This document shows, in pieces, positions 10,964-38,510 of a stretch of DNA of 64,000 bases (the stretch's first letter is position 1; every line of letters begins with the position of its first letter). Below the pieces are notes generated by a model. That model made no database searches. It was not told the origin of the DNA and saw only the letters and a list, made by a program, of their open reading frames with translations. Position numbers and translations under genes: made by a program. The stretch is from positions 7,316,001-7,380,000 of the forward strand of contig NZ_CP029192.1 of assembly GCF_008642315.1 (NCBI RefSeq). The letters run 5' to 3'. The stretch comes from Streptomyces venezuelae (GTDB lineage Bacteria; Actinomycetota; Actinomycetes; Streptomycetales; Streptomycetaceae).

Positions 10964-10994
10964 CCACCGCTGTCCGTATACCGGACAGCGGTGG
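10964..10994 (+). terminator. Long stem-loop downstream of the HAD gene
   Basis: CCACCGCTGTCCG (10964-10976) and CGGACAGCGGTGG (10982-10994) form a perfect 13-bp stem with the loop TATAC. It lies 30 bases after the HAD stop codon and directly upstream of the -35 element of the leader-peptide promoter. I read it as a terminator, but its position also allows an operator role for the met promoter. Confidence 0.65.
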
Positions 10995-11022
10995 TGGACA
11001 GCGACCACACGCGTGTTTTACT
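10995..11022 (+). promoter_or_regulatory. Promoter of the metNIQQ leader
   Basis: TGGACA at 10995-11000 resembles a -35 box. TTTACT at 11017-11022 is an acceptable -10 box with a 16-base spacer. The expected transcription start is at about 11029-11030, exactly the A of the ATG of the 28-codon leader frame, which implies leaderless translation. This is a by-eye call. Confidence 0.55.
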
Positions 11023-11029
11023 TGGGCCC

Positions 11030-11116
11030 ATGACCACGACGAGCAGCCGCACCCCTGCGACCGAGGCGATCACGACGCCCGGTGCTCGTTGTATGTGTCG
11101 AATGTGCGCCTTCTGA
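11030..11116 (+). CDS. Cys/Met-rich leader peptide before metNIQQ (28 aa)
   Basis: A short frame starting ATG ACC ACG and ending in TGA at 11114-11116. Its last nine residues are R-C-M-C-R-M-C-A-F: three Cys codons (TGT, TGT, TGC) and two Met codons packed just before the stop. It starts at the predicted transcription start, so it should be leaderless. The next gene, 243 bases downstream, is the ATPase of a methionine importer. Leaderless cysteine-rich upstream ORFs controlling sulfur genes are known in mycobacteria; by analogy, stalling at Cys or Met codons could set expression of the transporter. The peptide itself probably has no other function. Existence as a translated ORF is inferred, not shown. 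Confidence 0.6.
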   Translation: MTTTSSRTPATEAITTPGARCMCRMCAF

Positions 11117-11359
11117 GGGCCCCCGCACCACTGAAGAGCCTCGCGCCCCGAAGCGAAGCCGCTGTGCCGCGCTCCTGACCGACGGACCCGTTTGACCCGG
11201 TCTCGATCGAGTCGACAAGTCGACGTAGGAAGCGAGCCTGCCCCGCGCACACGTCCTCCGGTTCCACCGCACCACCACCGCGAGAACCGTGCCGCGTTCC
11301 GAACGAATGCCCCGTGCCCGGCCACCCCGCGCCGCGCACTCGACAGTGACGGAAATCCT
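11117..11359 (+). other. Long leader between the leader peptide and metN
   Basis: A 243-bp untranslated stretch separates the leader peptide from metN. It includes small palindromes such as CTCGATCGAG and GTCGAC-AA-GTCGAC (11202-11224) that could form alternative structures. I looked for a SAM-I or SAM-IV riboswitch and did not see the conserved core. No convincing ribosome-binding site precedes the metN GTG, only GACGGA at about 11348, so metN translation may depend on upstream events. Confidence 0.35.
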
Positions 11360-12418
11360 GTGATCACCACTTCCGGCCTCACCAAGGTCTACCGCTCACG
11401 CGGTCGTGAAGTAACCGCCCTCGACGGAGTCGACCTGCACGTCCGCGAGGGCGAGGTGTACGGCGTCATCGGCCAGTCCGGCGCCGGCAAGTCCTCCCTG
11501 ATCCGCTGCGTCAACCTCCTGGAGCGCCCCACCTCCGGCACCGTGACCGTCGCGGGCCAGGACCTCACCGCCCTGGCGGGCCGCGGCCCCCGCGCCGGCA
11601 AGGAACTGCGCAAGGCCCGCAGCCGCATCGGCATGGTCTTCCAGCACTTCAACCTGCTGTCCTCGCGCACCGTGCAGGACAACGTCGAGCTGCCCCTGGA
11701 GATCCTCGGACTCAGCGGCGCCGAGCGCTCCCGCAAGGCCCTCGAACTCCTCGACCTGGTCGGCCTCGCCGACAAGGCCAAGTCCTACCCGGCCCAGCTC
11801 TCCGGCGGCCAGAAGCAGCGCGTCGGCATCGCCCGCGCCCTGGCCGGCGACCCGAAGGTGCTCCTCTCCGACGAGGCGACCAGCGCCCTCGACCCCGAGA
11901 CCACCCGCTCCATCCTCCAGCTCCTGCGCGACCTCAACCAGCAGCTCGGCCTGACCGTCCTGCTCATCACGCACGAGATGGACGTCGTCAAGAGCGTCTG
12001 CGACTCCGCCGCCCTCATGGAGCGCGGGCAGATCATCGAGTCCGGCACCGTCAGCGAGCTGCTCGCCACCCCCGGCTCCGAGCTCGCCGCCGCGCTCTTC
12101 CCGGTCAGCGGCGACGCCACCGGCGCCGACCGCACCGTCGTCGACGTGACCTTCCACGGAGAGGCCGCGACGCAGCCGGTCATCTCCCAGCTGTCGCGCA
12201 CGTACAACATCGACATCTCGATCCTCGGCGCCGCGATGGACACCGTCGCGGGCAAGCAGGTCGGCCGCATGCGCATCGAGCTGCCGGGCCGCTTCGAGGA
12301 GAACGTCGTCCCCATCGGCTTCCTGCGCGAGCAGGGCCTCCAGGTCGACATCGCGGGCGACGACGCGACGCCCACCCCGAAGGACGCGACGCTGCTGGTC
12401 AAGGAAGGTGCCAAGTGA
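11360..12418 (+). CDS. metN: Methionine ABC transporter ATP-binding protein
   Basis: A 352-residue ABC ATPase that powers methionine import. Walker A is GQSGAGKSS, the signature is LSGGQKQR, and the Walker B region reads KVLLSDEATSALDPET. The C-terminal 80-90 residues form the NIL regulatory domain typical of MetN, which binds methionine and inhibits transport when the amino acid is plentiful. The frame stays open to 11192, but the GTG at 11360 begins exactly where MetN proteins start (ITTSGLTKVY). The stop overlaps the metI start by four bases (GTGA). Confidence 0.93.
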   Translation: MITTSGLTKVYRSRGREVTALDGVDLHVREGEVYGVIGQSGAGKSSLIRCVNLLERPTSGTVTVAGQDLTALAGRGPRAGKELRKARSRIGMVFQHFNLLSSRTVQDNVELPLEILGLSGAERSRKALELLDLVGLADKAKSYPAQLSGGQKQRVGIARALAGDPKVLLSDEATSALDPETTRSILQLLRDLNQQLGLTVLLITHEMDVVKSVCDSAALMERGQIIESGTVSELLATPGSELAAALFPVSGDATGADRTVVDVTFHGEAATQPVISQLSRTYNIDISILGAAMDTVAGKQVGRMRIELPGRFEENVVPIGFLREQGLQVDIAGDDATPTPKDATLLVKEGAK

Positions 12419-13161
12419 CCTGGTCGGAGATGCAGCCCCTGCTGGAGCAGGCCTGTTGGGACACCCTCTACATGGTGGGCTGGTCGACGCTGATAGCCGT
12501 CGTCGCCGGACTGCCGCTCGGTGTCCTGCTCGTCCTCACCGAGCGCGGCGGACTGCTGCAGAACGCCTTCCTCAACAAGGTCATCGGGCAGATCGTGAAC
12601 ATCGCCCGCTCGATGCCCTTCATCATCCTGATGGTCGCCCTGATGGGCTTCACGCGCTGGATCACCGGCACCACGATCGGCCGCGAGGCCGCTCTCGTGC
12701 CGCTGGCCGTCGGCGCCATCCCGTTCTTCGCGCGCCTGGTCGAGACCTCCATCCGTGAGGTCGACGGCGGGCTCGTCGAGGCCGTGCAGTCGATGGGCGG
12801 CTCCACCTGGACCGTCGTGCGCAAGGTCCTCGTCCCCGAGTCGCTGCCCTCGCTGATCTCGGGCGCCACCACCACGATCGTCGCCCTCATCGGCTACTCC
12901 GCGATGGCGGGCACGGTCGGCGGCGGCGGCCTAGGCGACCTCGCGCTGCGCTACGGCTACCAGCGCTTCGAGACCGAGCTGATGTGGATCACCGTGGCGA
13001 TCCTCGCCGTGGTCATCTCGATCATCCAGTTCGCGGGCGACTACGCCGCCCGCCGACTGCACAAGCGCGGCGGCGGCTCCGGCCCGCTGCTGCTGTTCCG
13101 GCCGCTGCGGGGCGTGACTCCCGGCACCGCCGCCGCCGAATCGGTCAGCAAGACCGGCTGA
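12415..13161 (+). CDS. metI: Methionine ABC transporter permease
   Basis: A 248-residue permease with about five transmembrane helices, the membrane channel of the methionine importer. It has the EAA loop, IREVDGGLVEAVQSMGGS, that docks on the ATPase, and the conserved ending GDLALRYGYQRF. It starts with a GTG that overlaps the metN stop codon. The C-terminus has an extra Gly/Arg-rich tail of about 35 residues beyond the usual end. Confidence 0.93.
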   Translation: MTWSEMQPLLEQACWDTLYMVGWSTLIAVVAGLPLGVLLVLTERGGLLQNAFLNKVIGQIVNIARSMPFIILMVALMGFTRWITGTTIGREAALVPLAVGAIPFFARLVETSIREVDGGLVEAVQSMGGSTWTVVRKVLVPESLPSLISGATTTIVALIGYSAMAGTVGGGGLGDLALRYGYQRFETELMWITVAILAVVISIIQFAGDYAARRLHKRGGGSGPLLLFRPLRGVTPGTAAAESVSKTG

Positions 13162-13246: not shown

Positions 13247-14083
13247 GTGCGTAACACCGCCAAGATCACCACCGCTGTCCTCGCCGCCGGAGTCCTCACC
13301 CTCGGGCTCACCGCCTGCGGCTCCGACAAGGGCTCCGGCGACAAGGACGGCCCGCTCGTCGTCGCCGCGACGCCGACGCCGCAGGGCGAGATCCTGGACT
13401 ACGTCCAGAAGAACCTCGCCAAGAAGGCGGGCCTCGACCTCGAGGTGAAGGAATTCACCGACTACGTCACGCCGAACACGGCCGTGGAGCAGGGCGAGGT
13501 CTTCGCCAACTACTTCCAGCACAAGCCGTATCTGGACGACTTCAACAAGAAGCGCGGCACCGACATCGTGCCCGTCCCGGGAGCCACGGTGCACCTGGAG
13601 CCGCTCGGCGTGTACTCGAAGAAGGTCAAGAAGCTCGGGGACCTGGAGAAGGGCGCCACCATCGCCATTCCCAACGACACCACCAACGAGGCCCGCGCGC
13701 TCAAGCTGCTCGCGGACAACGGCATCATCGAGCTCAAGAAGGGCGTGGGCTACGAGGCCACCCCCAAGGACATCGCCAAGAACCCCAAGAACATCCAGTT
13801 CAAGGAGCTCGAAGCCCCCACGGTGCCCCGCACCCTGAGCGATGTCGACGCCGCGGTGATCAACGGCAACTACGCGCTGGAGGCCAAGCCCTCCCTCAGC
13901 CCCGCCAAGGACGCCATCGTCGCCGAGCCCGCCAAGGGCAACCCCTACGGCAACTTCCTCGCCGTGAAGAAGGGCGACGAGAACGACCCGCGCGTGAAGA
14001 AGCTCGCCAAGCTCCTCACCTCGCCCGAGGTCAAGAAGTTCATCGACGAGAAGTACGACGGCGCCGTCGTCGCGGCGTTCTGA
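13247..14083 (+). CDS. metQ: Methionine-binding lipoprotein MetQ, first copy
   Basis: A 278-residue lipoprotein that captures methionine outside the membrane and delivers it to MetNI. The signal peptide ends in a lipobox, LGLTACGS, with Cys about residue 24. The NlpA/MetQ fold is seen in ATPTPQGEIL, EFTDYVTPNTA, the DTTNEARALKLL loop, and NGNYALEA. The start GTG at 13247 follows the strong site AGAAAGG. A second, closely related metQ begins two bases after its stop codon. Confidence 0.93.
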   Translation: MRNTAKITTAVLAAGVLTLGLTACGSDKGSGDKDGPLVVAATPTPQGEILDYVQKNLAKKAGLDLEVKEFTDYVTPNTAVEQGEVFANYFQHKPYLDDFNKKRGTDIVPVPGATVHLEPLGVYSKKVKKLGDLEKGATIAIPNDTTNEARALKLLADNGIIELKKGVGYEATPKDIAKNPKNIQFKELEAPTVPRTLSDVDAAVINGNYALEAKPSLSPAKDAIVAEPAKGNPYGNFLAVKKGDENDPRVKKLAKLLTSPEVKKFIDEKYDGAVVAAF

Positions 14084-14085
14084 CC

Positions 14086-14901
14086 GTGCGTACGTCCGCC
14101 ATCGCCGCCGCGGCGGGGACCCTGGCCCTCGCGCTCGGCCTCACCGCGTGCGGCGCGGACGACCGGAGCGACGGCGCGCTCGTGGTCGGCGCCACGCCGA
14201 CCCCGGCCGGCGAGGTCCTCACGTACATCCAGCAGAACCTGGCGAAGAAGGAGGGACTGGACCTCAAGATCACGGAGTTCACGGACTACGTCACGCCGAA
14301 CACCGCGCTCCAAGAGGGCTCCCTCGACGCCAACCTGTACCAGCACACCCCGTACCTCGAGGATTTCAACGCGTCCAAGAAGACGGACCTCGTGCCGGTC
14401 ACCGAGGTGTACCTGCCCCCCATGGGCGTGTACGCGCACAAGATCAAGGACATCGCGAAGCTCCCCGCGGGAGCGACCGTCGGCGTCCCGAACGACACGA
14501 CCAACGAGGGCCGGGCGCTCCAGCTGCTCGCCTCCAAGGGCCTCATCGGACTCAAGAAGGGCGTCGGCGGCACCGCCACGCCCGAGGACATCACGTCCAA
14601 CCCGAAGAAGCTCACCGTCAAGGCACTCGAACCGGCGCAGCTCCCGCGCTCGCTCGACGACCTCGACGCGGCGGTCATCAACAACAACTACGCGCTCGAC
14701 GCCGACCTGAGCCCCAAGAAGGACGCCATCCTCCTGGAGTCGTCGAAGGGCAATCCCTACAACAACGTCCTCGCCGTCAAGAAGAGCGACAAGGACGACC
14801 CGCGGGTGCGCAAGCTCGCGAAACTGCTCCGCTCGCCCGAGGTGAAGAAGTTCATCGAGGACAAGTACAAGGGGTCCGTCCTGCCCGTCGAGGCGGCCTG
14901 A
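14086..14901 (+). CDS. metQ: Methionine-binding lipoprotein MetQ, second copy
   Basis: A 271-residue paralogue of the preceding MetQ, sharing most landmarks: lipobox LGLTACGA (Cys near residue 22), ATPTPAGEVL, EFTDYVTPNTAL, NDTTNEGRALQLL and NNNYALDA. It begins with GTG two bases after the first metQ stop, so the pair is translationally coupled and both proteins should be made together. Likely a tandem duplication that has diverged, giving the importer two binding proteins with different affinity or specificity (for instance D-Met, peptides or sulfoxide); this is inference. A strong terminator follows. Confidence 0.92.
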   Translation: MRTSAIAAAAGTLALALGLTACGADDRSDGALVVGATPTPAGEVLTYIQQNLAKKEGLDLKITEFTDYVTPNTALQEGSLDANLYQHTPYLEDFNASKKTDLVPVTEVYLPPMGVYAHKIKDIAKLPAGATVGVPNDTTNEGRALQLLASKGLIGLKKGVGGTATPEDITSNPKKLTVKALEPAQLPRSLDDLDAAVINNNYALDADLSPKKDAILLESSKGNPYNNVLAVKKSDKDDPRVRKLAKLLRSPEVKKFIEDKYKGSVLPVEAA

Positions 14902-28084: not shown

Positions 28085-28156
28085 TGCGCGATACTGGGAT
28101 TGAACCAGTGACCTCTTCCGTGTCAGGGAAGCGCTCTCCCGCTGAGCTAATCGCGC
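28085..28156 (-). tRNA. tRNA-Val (anticodon GAC), copy 1
   Basis: A 72-nt cloverleaf on the minus strand: acceptor GCGCGAT/ATCGCGC with discriminator A, D-arm with AGCTCAGCGGGAGAGC, anticodon stem CTTCC/GGAAG with loop CTGACAC (anticodon GAC), and T-loop GGTTCAATCC. CCA is not encoded. It reads GUC and GUU valine codons. Last of five tRNA genes in transcription order. Confidence 0.95.
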
Positions 28157-28185
28157 AGGTAAACCTGCGTGTGCTGCGTACTGCG

Positions 28186-28257
28186 TGCGCGATACTGGGA
28201 TTGAACCAGTGACCTCTTCCGTGTCAGGGAAGCGCTCTCCCGCTGAGCTAATCGCGC
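28186..28257 (-). tRNA. tRNA-Val (anticodon GAC), copy 2
   Basis: Identical in sequence to the copy at 28085-28156, 29 bp upstream of it. The 10 bases flanking its 3' end (CTGCGTGCGC on the plus strand) are shared with copy 3, as expected from tandem duplication. Confidence 0.95.
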
Positions 28258-28316
28258 GGGGATCCTTGCGGACCGGATCTTCGGTTGTGCTGTGCTGCCA
28301 GCCGAGCTGGGCTGCG

Positions 28317-28388
28317 TGCGCGATACTGGGATTGAACCAGTGACCTCTTCCGTGTCAGGGAAGCGCTCTCCCGCTGAGCTAATCGCGC
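28317..28388 (-). tRNA. tRNA-Val (anticodon GAC), copy 3
   Basis: Third identical tRNA-Val(GAC) gene, 59 bp upstream of copy 2 and four bp from the tRNA-Cys gene. Confidence 0.95.
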
Positions 28389-28392
28389 TTGG

Positions 28393-28463
28393 AGGTGGAG
28401 ACGGGATTTGAACCCGTGTAGACGGCTTTGCAGGCCGTTGCCTCGCCTCTCGGCCACTCCACC
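28393..28463 (-). tRNA. tRNA-Cys (anticodon GCA)
   Basis: A 71-nt cloverleaf: acceptor GGTGGAG/CTCCACC, D-arm GGCCGAGAGGC, anticodon stem ACGGC/GCCGT with loop CTGCAAA (anticodon GCA), and T-loop GGTTCAAATCC. It is the second gene of the cluster in transcription order. Confidence 0.95.
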
Positions 28464-28503
28464 AGGAGTATGAGGGTTCGGGAAGATCCCCCACTTTCCT
28501 GCG

Positions 28504-28576
28504 AGCGGACGACCAGGTTCGAACTGGCGACCTCAACCTTGGCAAGGTTGCGCTCTACCAACTGAGCTACGTCCGC
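28504..28576 (-). tRNA. tRNA-Gly (anticodon GCC)
   Basis: A 73-nt cloverleaf: acceptor GCGGACG/CGTCCGC, D-arm AGCTCAGTTGGTAGAGC, anticodon stem CAACC/GGTTG with loop TTGCCAA (anticodon GCC), T-loop GGTTCGAACC. First gene of the cluster, 42 bp downstream of a good promoter. Confidence 0.95.
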
Positions 28577-35272: not shown

Positions 35273-35344
35273 GGGCGATTAGCTCAGTGGGAGAGCGCTT
35301 CGTTCACACCGAAGAGGTCACTGGTTCGAACCCAGTATCGCCCA
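35273..35344 (+). tRNA. tRNA-Val (anticodon CAC), copy 1
   Basis: A 72-nt cloverleaf: acceptor GGGCGAT/ATCGCCC with discriminator A, D-arm AGCTCAGTGGGAGAGC, anticodon stem CTTCG/CGAAG with loop TTCACAC (anticodon CAC), T-loop GGTTCGAACCC. It reads GUG codons. A terminator hairpin follows after 10 bases. Confidence 0.95.
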
Positions 35345-38438: not shown

Positions 38439-38510
38439 GGGCGATTAGCTCAGTGGGAGAGCGCTTCGTTCACACCGAAGAGGTCACTGGTTCGAACCCA
38501 GTATCGCCCA
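38439..38510 (+). tRNA. tRNA-Val (anticodon CAC), copy 2
   Basis: Identical in all 72 bases to the tRNA-Val(CAC) at 35273-35344. The five bases before the gene differ, so the two loci are separate transcription units. Confidence 0.95.

Follow-up and report, generated by a model that had tools for sequence, protein, structure and literature searches.

Polycysteine leaderless upstream open reading frames (uORFs) reportedly act as attenuators in mycobacteria, an observation credited to Canestrari et al. in 2020. For methionine genes, the relevant part of a survey of leader regions (Seliverstov et al., 2005; PMC1262725) noted that methionine operons have no conserved structure ahead of them. A leader peptide named metL has been listed before metNIQ in S. 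lividans TK24, in an entry that describes 'several methionines and threonines' and gives termination as unclear (PMC8079986). The locus described here is the orthologue of metL, which according to that entry occupies the same site before metNIQ, is leaderless and encodes a peptide, MSTTSDRTPATEATTTPGARCMCRRMCAF, that matches the uORF of locus L114 (genome G136) letter for letter (PMC8079986).

The window analysed, a stretch of 64,000 nucleotides, comprises bases 7316001-7380000 of the 8.94 Mb single-contig Streptomyces venezuelae genome. An initial annotation of this window had pointed to a Cys/Met-rich leader peptide before a methionine importer operon, and that observation is confirmed, with the element proving broader and more structured than had been supposed, and in part already published. 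On the comparisons set out below it is, on balance, probably a ribosome-mediated attenuator of the methionine importer that would be read out by the charging of Cys- and Met-tRNA. Elsewhere in the window Rfam identified tRNA genes as a cluster of five on the minus strand (28085-28576) and as two single genes on the plus strand (35273-35344 and 38439-38510).

The uORF and the metNIQQ operon

The uORF encodes the peptide MTTTSSRTPATEAITTPGARCMCRMCAF, reading ATG ACC ACG ... TGT ATG TGT CGA ATG TGC GCC TTC TGA from the ATG at 11030 to the TGA at 11114-11116, and 243 bp separate it from the GTG of metN at 11360 (Table 1). Re-reading the window showed that the 28-codon frame, its RCMCRMCAF tail and the missing ribosome-binding site had been described correctly, as had the 243-bp gap and the metNIQQ operon, in which Pfam recognised MetN, MetI and two MetQ proteins.

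Table 1. Positions of the features of the metN leader and operon within the window, with the observation on which each is based.
Feature	Position	Strand	Basis or remark
Operator-like palindrome CTGTCCG-N5-CGGACAG	10970..10988		centre about -51
-10 element TTTACT	11017..11022	+	7 nt before ATG; conservation profile
uORF, predicted leaderless (S. lividans metL orthologue)	11030..11116	+	28 codons + stop
P1 5' strand (ACGACGAGC) of predicted three-way junction	11036..11044	+	covariation, closure test
P2 hairpin CGCA-CCCC-TGCG (predicted)	11048..11059	+	last pair broken in 30/67 sequences
P3 hairpin ACCG(A)GGCG...CGCCCGGT (predicted)	11060..11083	+	99.3% of cells paired, 67 sequences
P1 3' strand (GCTCGTTGT), including first Cys codon	11084..11092	+	predicted fold, pairing in 67 sequences
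Codon cluster TGT ATG TGT CGA ATG TGC (Cys-Met-Cys-Arg-Met-Cys)	11090..11107	+	CGA-ATG nearly invariant
Post-stop GGGCCCC box	11117..11123	+	co-occurs with P4
P4 hairpin, loop GCCCCGAA	11138..11159	+	3/7 stem pairs change on both sides
C-rich spacer, candidate Rho-loading stretch	11160..11333	+	no T-run
metN initiation region GCGCACTCGACAGTGACGGAAA, conserved	11334..11355	+	conservation profile
metN (ABC_tran + NIL)	11360..12418	+	Pfam
metI (BPD_transp_1)	12415..13161	+	Pfam
metQ, first copy (Lipoprotein_9)	13247..14083	+	Pfam
metQ, second copy (Lipoprotein_9)	14086..14901	+	Pfam

The promoter had been proposed as TGGACA-16-TTTACT. Its -10 element is borne out, with TTACT or TAACT 6-7 nt ahead of the ATG in all 109 Streptomyces loci examined and a conserved consensus of GTCTG-N-TTTACT (window version GCGTGTTTTACT), whereas the -35 TGGACA is not conserved in the profile. 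A conserved -35 is missing from the Streptomyces promoters. In Actinomadura a conserved motif just 5' of the uORF (GATTTGCGTCAT in L280, L307 and L309; GATTTGACGTCAT in L299 and L333), which in L280 occupies roughly -27 to -38 relative to the ATG and ends some 16 nt short of the -10, is probably the -35 element. The constant -10 spacing supports a predicted leaderless start of the uORF in S. venezuelae, as the initial annotation had suggested, in keeping with the RNA-seq start of the orthologous S. lividans transcript, reported as leaderless in the metL entry (Droste et al., 2021; PMC8079986).

Distribution among actinobacteria

The uORF peptide was matched in 135 of 150 Streptomyces genomes (E<=0.01), and 109 of the 137 peptide-match rows were taken into the Streptomyces locus counts. 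From 35 sequences a covariance model, R1, was built for the leader, with A1 holding 35 of 39 diverse sequences (L031, L032, L061 and L084 left out), and this model recovered the element in seven of the 15 genomes missed by the peptide, bringing the Streptomyces total to 142 of 150. The frame and its Cys/Met codons are kept in relatives, the comparison that the initial annotation had put forward as a check, and the recurrence of the uORF among Streptomyces genomes is far above chance.

Searching the Streptomycetaceae with the RNA model matched 84/150 genomes and 13/17 genera, while a class-wide search matched 50 of 394 genomes (E<=0.1), 11 of them outside Streptomyces. Three of these 11 (G631, G611 and G511; 39-52 bits) lie ahead of metN, and the other eight (21-25 bits) are probably chance matches; the MetN Walker motif was absent downstream of L202 and L207, the two weak class-level matches inspected. 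A second match in G192 (L196) is probably false, and L105, a second and false match in G076, was dropped. L195, L196 and L207 were left out of the codon, codon-position/post-stop box and frame counts, and L202 out of the codon-position/post-stop box and frame counts.

A pattern scan of named genomes matched 116 stretches and, among the matches listed (80 of 116), 58 were from Streptomyces, seven from Kitasatospora, 14 from Actinomadura and one from Spirillospora. Actinomadura and Spirillospora belong to a family and order other than those of Streptomycetaceae. The MetN Walker A motif follows the uORF in 14 of the 15 Actinomadura/Spirillospora loci, the 15th lying near the end of its stretch, and in a set of 169 loci a MetN motif lies downstream in 164, with three of the five exceptions probably false matches. 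At L174 a MetN-like frame without the Walker A motif begins about 264 nt past the uORF start, as if the metN core had been lost while the leader stayed. In a scan of 30 metN loci (17 re-examined), one analogous leaderless-looking uORF was seen in another family (L266, family f28; MTTTAGTPRHLRRAAPMACCRRPDASC), 342 nt ahead of metN.

Reading frame and codon content

The promoter-defined ATG or GTG and the last CG[A/C]ATG lie apart by a distance divisible by three in 178/178 loci, spread over 10 lengths, where the ATG or GTG after the -10 was picked irrespective of frame; two of 180 loci were unmeasurable (L092 without CGAATG, L198 without a recognised -10), and L199 is the L353 record. As a control, the distance from the stop to P4, the hairpin that follows it, falls into the three frame classes as 99/37/28 of 164, over 18 lengths. 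The stop codon is itself retained even where TGA has become TAG with one base added. Frame retention in every locus, unlike the stop-to-P4 control, argues that translation of the uORF is under selection.

The pile-up of Cys and Met codons before the stop, central to the initial annotation, is likewise conserved, with at least three Cys+Met among the last 14 codons in 163/166 uORFs. There is no contiguous Cys run, the window having CMCRMC and adjacent Cys pairs occurring in some relatives only. The most invariant codons are those for Arg(CGA)-Met rather than for Cys: Arg precedes the last ATG in 165/165 uORFs that have this ATG, as CGA in 161 and CGC in four, and the last ATG always (165/165) sits 3-4 codons from the stop. 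The codon after it stands for Cys (133 uORFs), Arg (30) or His (two). By comparison, five neighbouring genes with 67 Arg codons between them use CGA only once. The N-terminal halves are wholly different between clades (MTTTSSRTPATEAITTPGAR... against MPSVRPCREHRPPMRRALGR...), that of Actinomadura being unrelated to that of Streptomyces, while the tail keeps R-M-C.

That Arg is steadier than Cys could also be read as the mark of a TnaC-like arrest peptide, in which the nascent ...R-M-C-x-x-stop would stall the ribosome on a small molecule and so shield the post-stop Rho/P4 region, and the C-rich stretch does start directly after the stop. The constant RM and its spacing from the stop are at most compatible with TnaC-type arrest. 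Against this reading, conservation is seen at the nucleotide level as well (the CGA codon), the remainder of the peptide is free to vary and no NCBIfam leader or arrest-peptide model was matched, the search, which included NF042934, returning no family for the window peptide or for five relatives. Of the readings that compete with attenuation through tRNA charging this one survives best, and we regard it as unlikely.

Predicted RNA structure within the uORF

Across the 109 Streptomyces loci, conservation at the first, second and third positions of uORF codons 2-20 is 0.938/0.874/0.950, compared with 0.959/0.954/0.811 in the metN control. Third positions are thus the best conserved, the opposite of what constraint on a peptide alone would give, and this supports a constraint on the uORF RNA in addition to the frame. 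P1, P2 and P3 are predicted to form a three-way junction (Table 1), and the variable codons 6, 8, 9, 14 and 15 map to its loops and to the junction itself.

In 67 Streptomycetaceae sequences 94.1% of the P1-P3 cells are paired against 92.1 in shuffled alignments. Cells changed on both sides number 33 against 14.0 shuffled (reached by 0/500 shuffles, which ignore relatedness), and both-side changes occur at five of 21 pairs against 3.0 shuffled (reached by 7/500, again ignoring relatedness). At one of these pairs the change from G-C to A-U corresponds to the linked swap of Ser5-Ala19 to Asn5-Val19 and may represent few events. The folding energy of the uORF is modestly low, with a mean z of -0.93 against dinucleotide and -0.60 against synonymous shuffles in 37 sequences (controls -0.15/-0.05).

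Single-sequence minimum free energy folds of Actinomadura uORFs often show a P1 enclosing hairpins, a similar topology. Within Actinomadura 91.1% of cells are paired against 90.2% shuffled (reached by 49/500) and two pairs show double changes against 1.8 shuffled, giving no covariation signal in that genus, where the free RNAalifold prediction departs from the proposed P1/P2. A closure test, pairing the 5' part of the uORF with the stretch before CGAATG, gave 14.0 expected pairs against 6.7 shuffled in 15 Actinomadura/Spirillospora loci, 11.5 against 5.9 in 45 Streptomyces loci and 11.9 against 6.3 in 41 other loci. The value lay above the locus's own shuffled median in 15/15, 43/45 and 41/41 loci respectively, relatedness being ignored, and reached the 5% level in only eight Actinomadura/Spirillospora, four Streptomyces and nine other loci. 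As modelled, the N-terminal half of the uORF likely folds as a three-way junction. Rfam returned nothing over the metN leader locus at gathering score, and at E<=10 only mir-2765 on the minus strand (18.1 bits, E 0.61).

The post-stop module and the leader to metN

A GGG[C/T]CC box follows the stop in 160/164 loci with P4 compared with 2/16 without it, and the GGGC of the box could, from the modelled structure, pair with the GCCC of the P4 loop. The P4 core string was found at 11 places in 10/21 genomes, every one beside the uORF, and among 34 sequences one of the two outer stem pairs is open in 25 and the other in 14. Twelve of the 16 loci without P4 belong to a single genus, g7; these (L164, L166-L170, L172-L176 and L180) keep the uORF, show no recognisable P4 and carry a changed GGGCCCC box. 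Loss of P4 with the uORF retained hints that sensor and post-stop module can be separated.

The constraint on third positions, the P1-P3 pairs that change on both sides and the joint conservation of the GGGC box and P4 loop could together be taken to mean that the RNA is itself the sensor, a ligand-binding, riboswitch-like element of three-way junction and post-stop module that overlaps the uORF. Against this reading, the frame is strictly kept, and the junction has few conserved unpaired bases and is replaced in sequence in Actinomadura, which is unusual for an aptamer; given in addition the loss of P4 in the 12 g7 loci and the lack of an Rfam match, we consider an RNA sensor of this kind improbable.

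Over the 161 loci in which a MetN start was located, the C/G ratio between the uORF stop and metN is 1.56, as against 1.20 for the coding sequence of metN and 1.11 for upstream sequence. An intrinsic terminator was sought and rejected, the leader in the window having no run of four or more T. From the C-rich leader and the absence of a T-run, termination of the Rho type would be expected rather than intrinsic termination, and Rho may thus act in the leader.

A second candidate, attractive within Streptomyces, was a helix masking the ribosome-binding site of metN by pairing of uORF UGUCGAAUG with CACUCGACA ahead of metN; it failed a comparative test as a general mechanism. The mean z of the duplex was -1.05 (113 loci) and -0.80 (48 loci), with z below -3 in a few loci (L168, L170, L172, L175, L183 and L198); TGT to TGC changes were uncompensated (for example in L090, L095, L112, L148 and L151), as were changes on the ribosome-binding site side (L075, L085 and L086), and the partner is missing from the metN initiation region of Actinomadura. 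It was dropped as a general mechanism on these three grounds, and such pairing may operate in a subset of loci.

The upstream palindrome and published expression data

The initial annotation had described a 13-bp hairpin just upstream of the promoter. The inverted repeat is there, CCACCGCTGTCCG/CGGACAGCGGTGG at 10964-10994 with 13-bp arms, but it lies 5' of the presumed transcription start and is better described as a conserved DNA palindrome, with the operator-like sequence as its core. A TCC-N7-9-GGA repeat is present in 105/109 Streptomyces loci, with its centre within -56..-44 in 99 (about -50 in 79, -48 in 17), while in many loci outside the genus, and in a few divergent Streptomyces too, the centre lies at about -58 to -60, a shift between genera of approximately one helical turn further upstream. 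Because the distance to the start is either fixed or shifted by about one helical turn, the palindrome resembles a protein-binding site, and it is a likely candidate site for a DNA-binding regulator, an activator. It was not found in most g7 loci or in any of the three f17 loci tested, where the leader is kept. Other near matches in the genome adjoin unrelated genes (purple acid phosphatase/isocitrate dehydrogenase, MctP, a GntR regulator and an amino-acid permease) and point to no particular regulator; when the pattern was reversed as a control, the 19-mer allowing one mismatch occurred equally often, and the 17-mer gave 1/3 vs 5/4.

In S. coelicolor, metN, metI and metQ were listed together with Cys genes as changing 5.24-, 3.51- and 2.26-fold under oxidative stress, and the pertinent part of the study traces this response to the HbpS-SenS-SenR system and places a predicted SenR site 31 nt ahead of SCO1559 (metN; PMC4991794). 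In S. clavuligerus without metX, metY and metE, the metNIQ orthologues were the most upregulated among genes of diverse function, as stated in the relevant section (PMC5702194). The direction of both responses fits attenuation through the uORF. These data do not single out the uORF, because control at the promoter through SenR and the palindrome can explain both datasets. A regulator at the palindrome, or SenR, might accordingly control the operon with the leader as a constitutive 5' region only, a view that the palindrome's spacing and the SenR dependence would favour (the latter as given in the part of PMC4991794 concerned). It would leave the conserved frame, the Cys/Met tail and the leader RNA unexplained and does not account for the g7 and f17 loci that keep the leader and lack the palindrome, so that we think it quite improbable as the whole explanation. 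Least probable by far is that the uORF product is a small protein acting in trans, for although the peptide is conserved within Streptomyces, its N-terminal half is unrelated in Actinomadura, its third codon positions are constrained and a MetN motif almost always follows it.

A model for ribosome-mediated attenuation

In the favoured model, attenuation by the ribosome that translates the uORF, transcription would begin at the A of the uORF ATG, as others have shown for S. lividans. A ribosome would load on the 5' AUG and, to judge from the comparisons, would have to open a fold made of the coding sequence itself before reaching the Cys/Met codon block, with its CGA Arg codon, just ahead of the stop. 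Were Cys-tRNA or Met-tRNA scarce, the ribosome would pause at this block and alter which downstream structures form (P1 and the post-stop GGGC/P4 module), such that transcription or translation could proceed into metNIQQ. With sulfur amino acids plentiful it would complete the uORF and depart, after which most transcripts would terminate within the C-rich leader, which is probably sensitive to Rho, or translation of metN would be poor. Of the links between pause and metN that were put to a test, intrinsic termination and anti-RBS pairing, none passed.

A more specific version, which we advance tentatively and doubt somewhat more than we believe, is a dual-coded sulfur sensor in which the leaderless Cys/Met ORF is at the same time a conserved three-way-junction RNA with a pseudoknot-like post-stop module, ribosome position and fold being read jointly. 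If true, such sensors would form a class of riboregulator that depends on the ribosome, is widespread in Streptomycetaceae and in the family of Actinomadura and Spirillospora, has no Rfam or NCBIfam entry and responds to Cys and Met jointly. The element offers a concrete candidate for a cis-regulator of methionine uptake that can be tested and is present in nearly all of the Streptomyces sampled, and experiments on it can tell constraint on coding from constraint on RNA structure. If borne out, it would warrant an RNA family and a leader-peptide model of its own in annotation pipelines.

Comparison with described leaders

The initial annotation had considered a combined Cys and Met uORF to be new. 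The uORF is not entirely so, because its S. lividans orthologue metL is already in print, listed as a Met/Thr attenuator; the Cys reading stands as new, since the metL text names Met and Thr, and Cys is thereby added to the sole published reading (PMC8079986). The Cys content, the conservation, the RNA fold, P4 and the palindrome come from the present analysis, and among the matches listed in the open-licence PMC literature no further description of the metN uORF was found. New here are the spread through Streptomyces, other Streptomycetaceae and Actinomadura/Spirillospora, the kept frame, the RNA constraint and the Cys content.

Within the genome of the window (G000), six leader loci elsewhere exceed the cut-off of the NCBIfam cis_reg_atten model NF042934 (L230-L235). 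These resemble the metN uORF as short leader ORFs ending near Cys, and differ in carrying a peptide of RRHVDLxRxxSAxC type (in the two read, L230 and L233), a profile that the metN uORF does not match.

The polycysteine attenuators of mycobacteria, in the sections of the papers that describe them, share with the metN uORF Cys codons before sulfur genes, and their leaderless start is matched by the one predicted for the metN uORF (PMC9031893; PMC13236596). In the metN uORF, by contrast, Cys alternates with Met around a fixed CGA-ATG, the target is a methionine importer, the uORF is constrained as RNA and masking of the ribosome-binding site is unsupported in general. The Cys leader peptides of the cys operons of Mycobacterium and Propionibacterium and of cbs in Bifidobacterium, as presented in that portion of the survey, likewise have Cys codons by the stop and share with the metN uORF the lack of a terminator and the suggestion of Rho, and differ in the genes and taxa concerned (Seliverstov et al., 2005; PMC1262725). 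In the ilvB-II motif of Corynebacterium, as outlined in the passage on the ilvBNC uORF, a regulatory uORF was found inside a conserved RNA motif, an arrangement like the one proposed here, with branched-chain amino acids in place of sulfur amino acids and in another taxon (PMC10272879).
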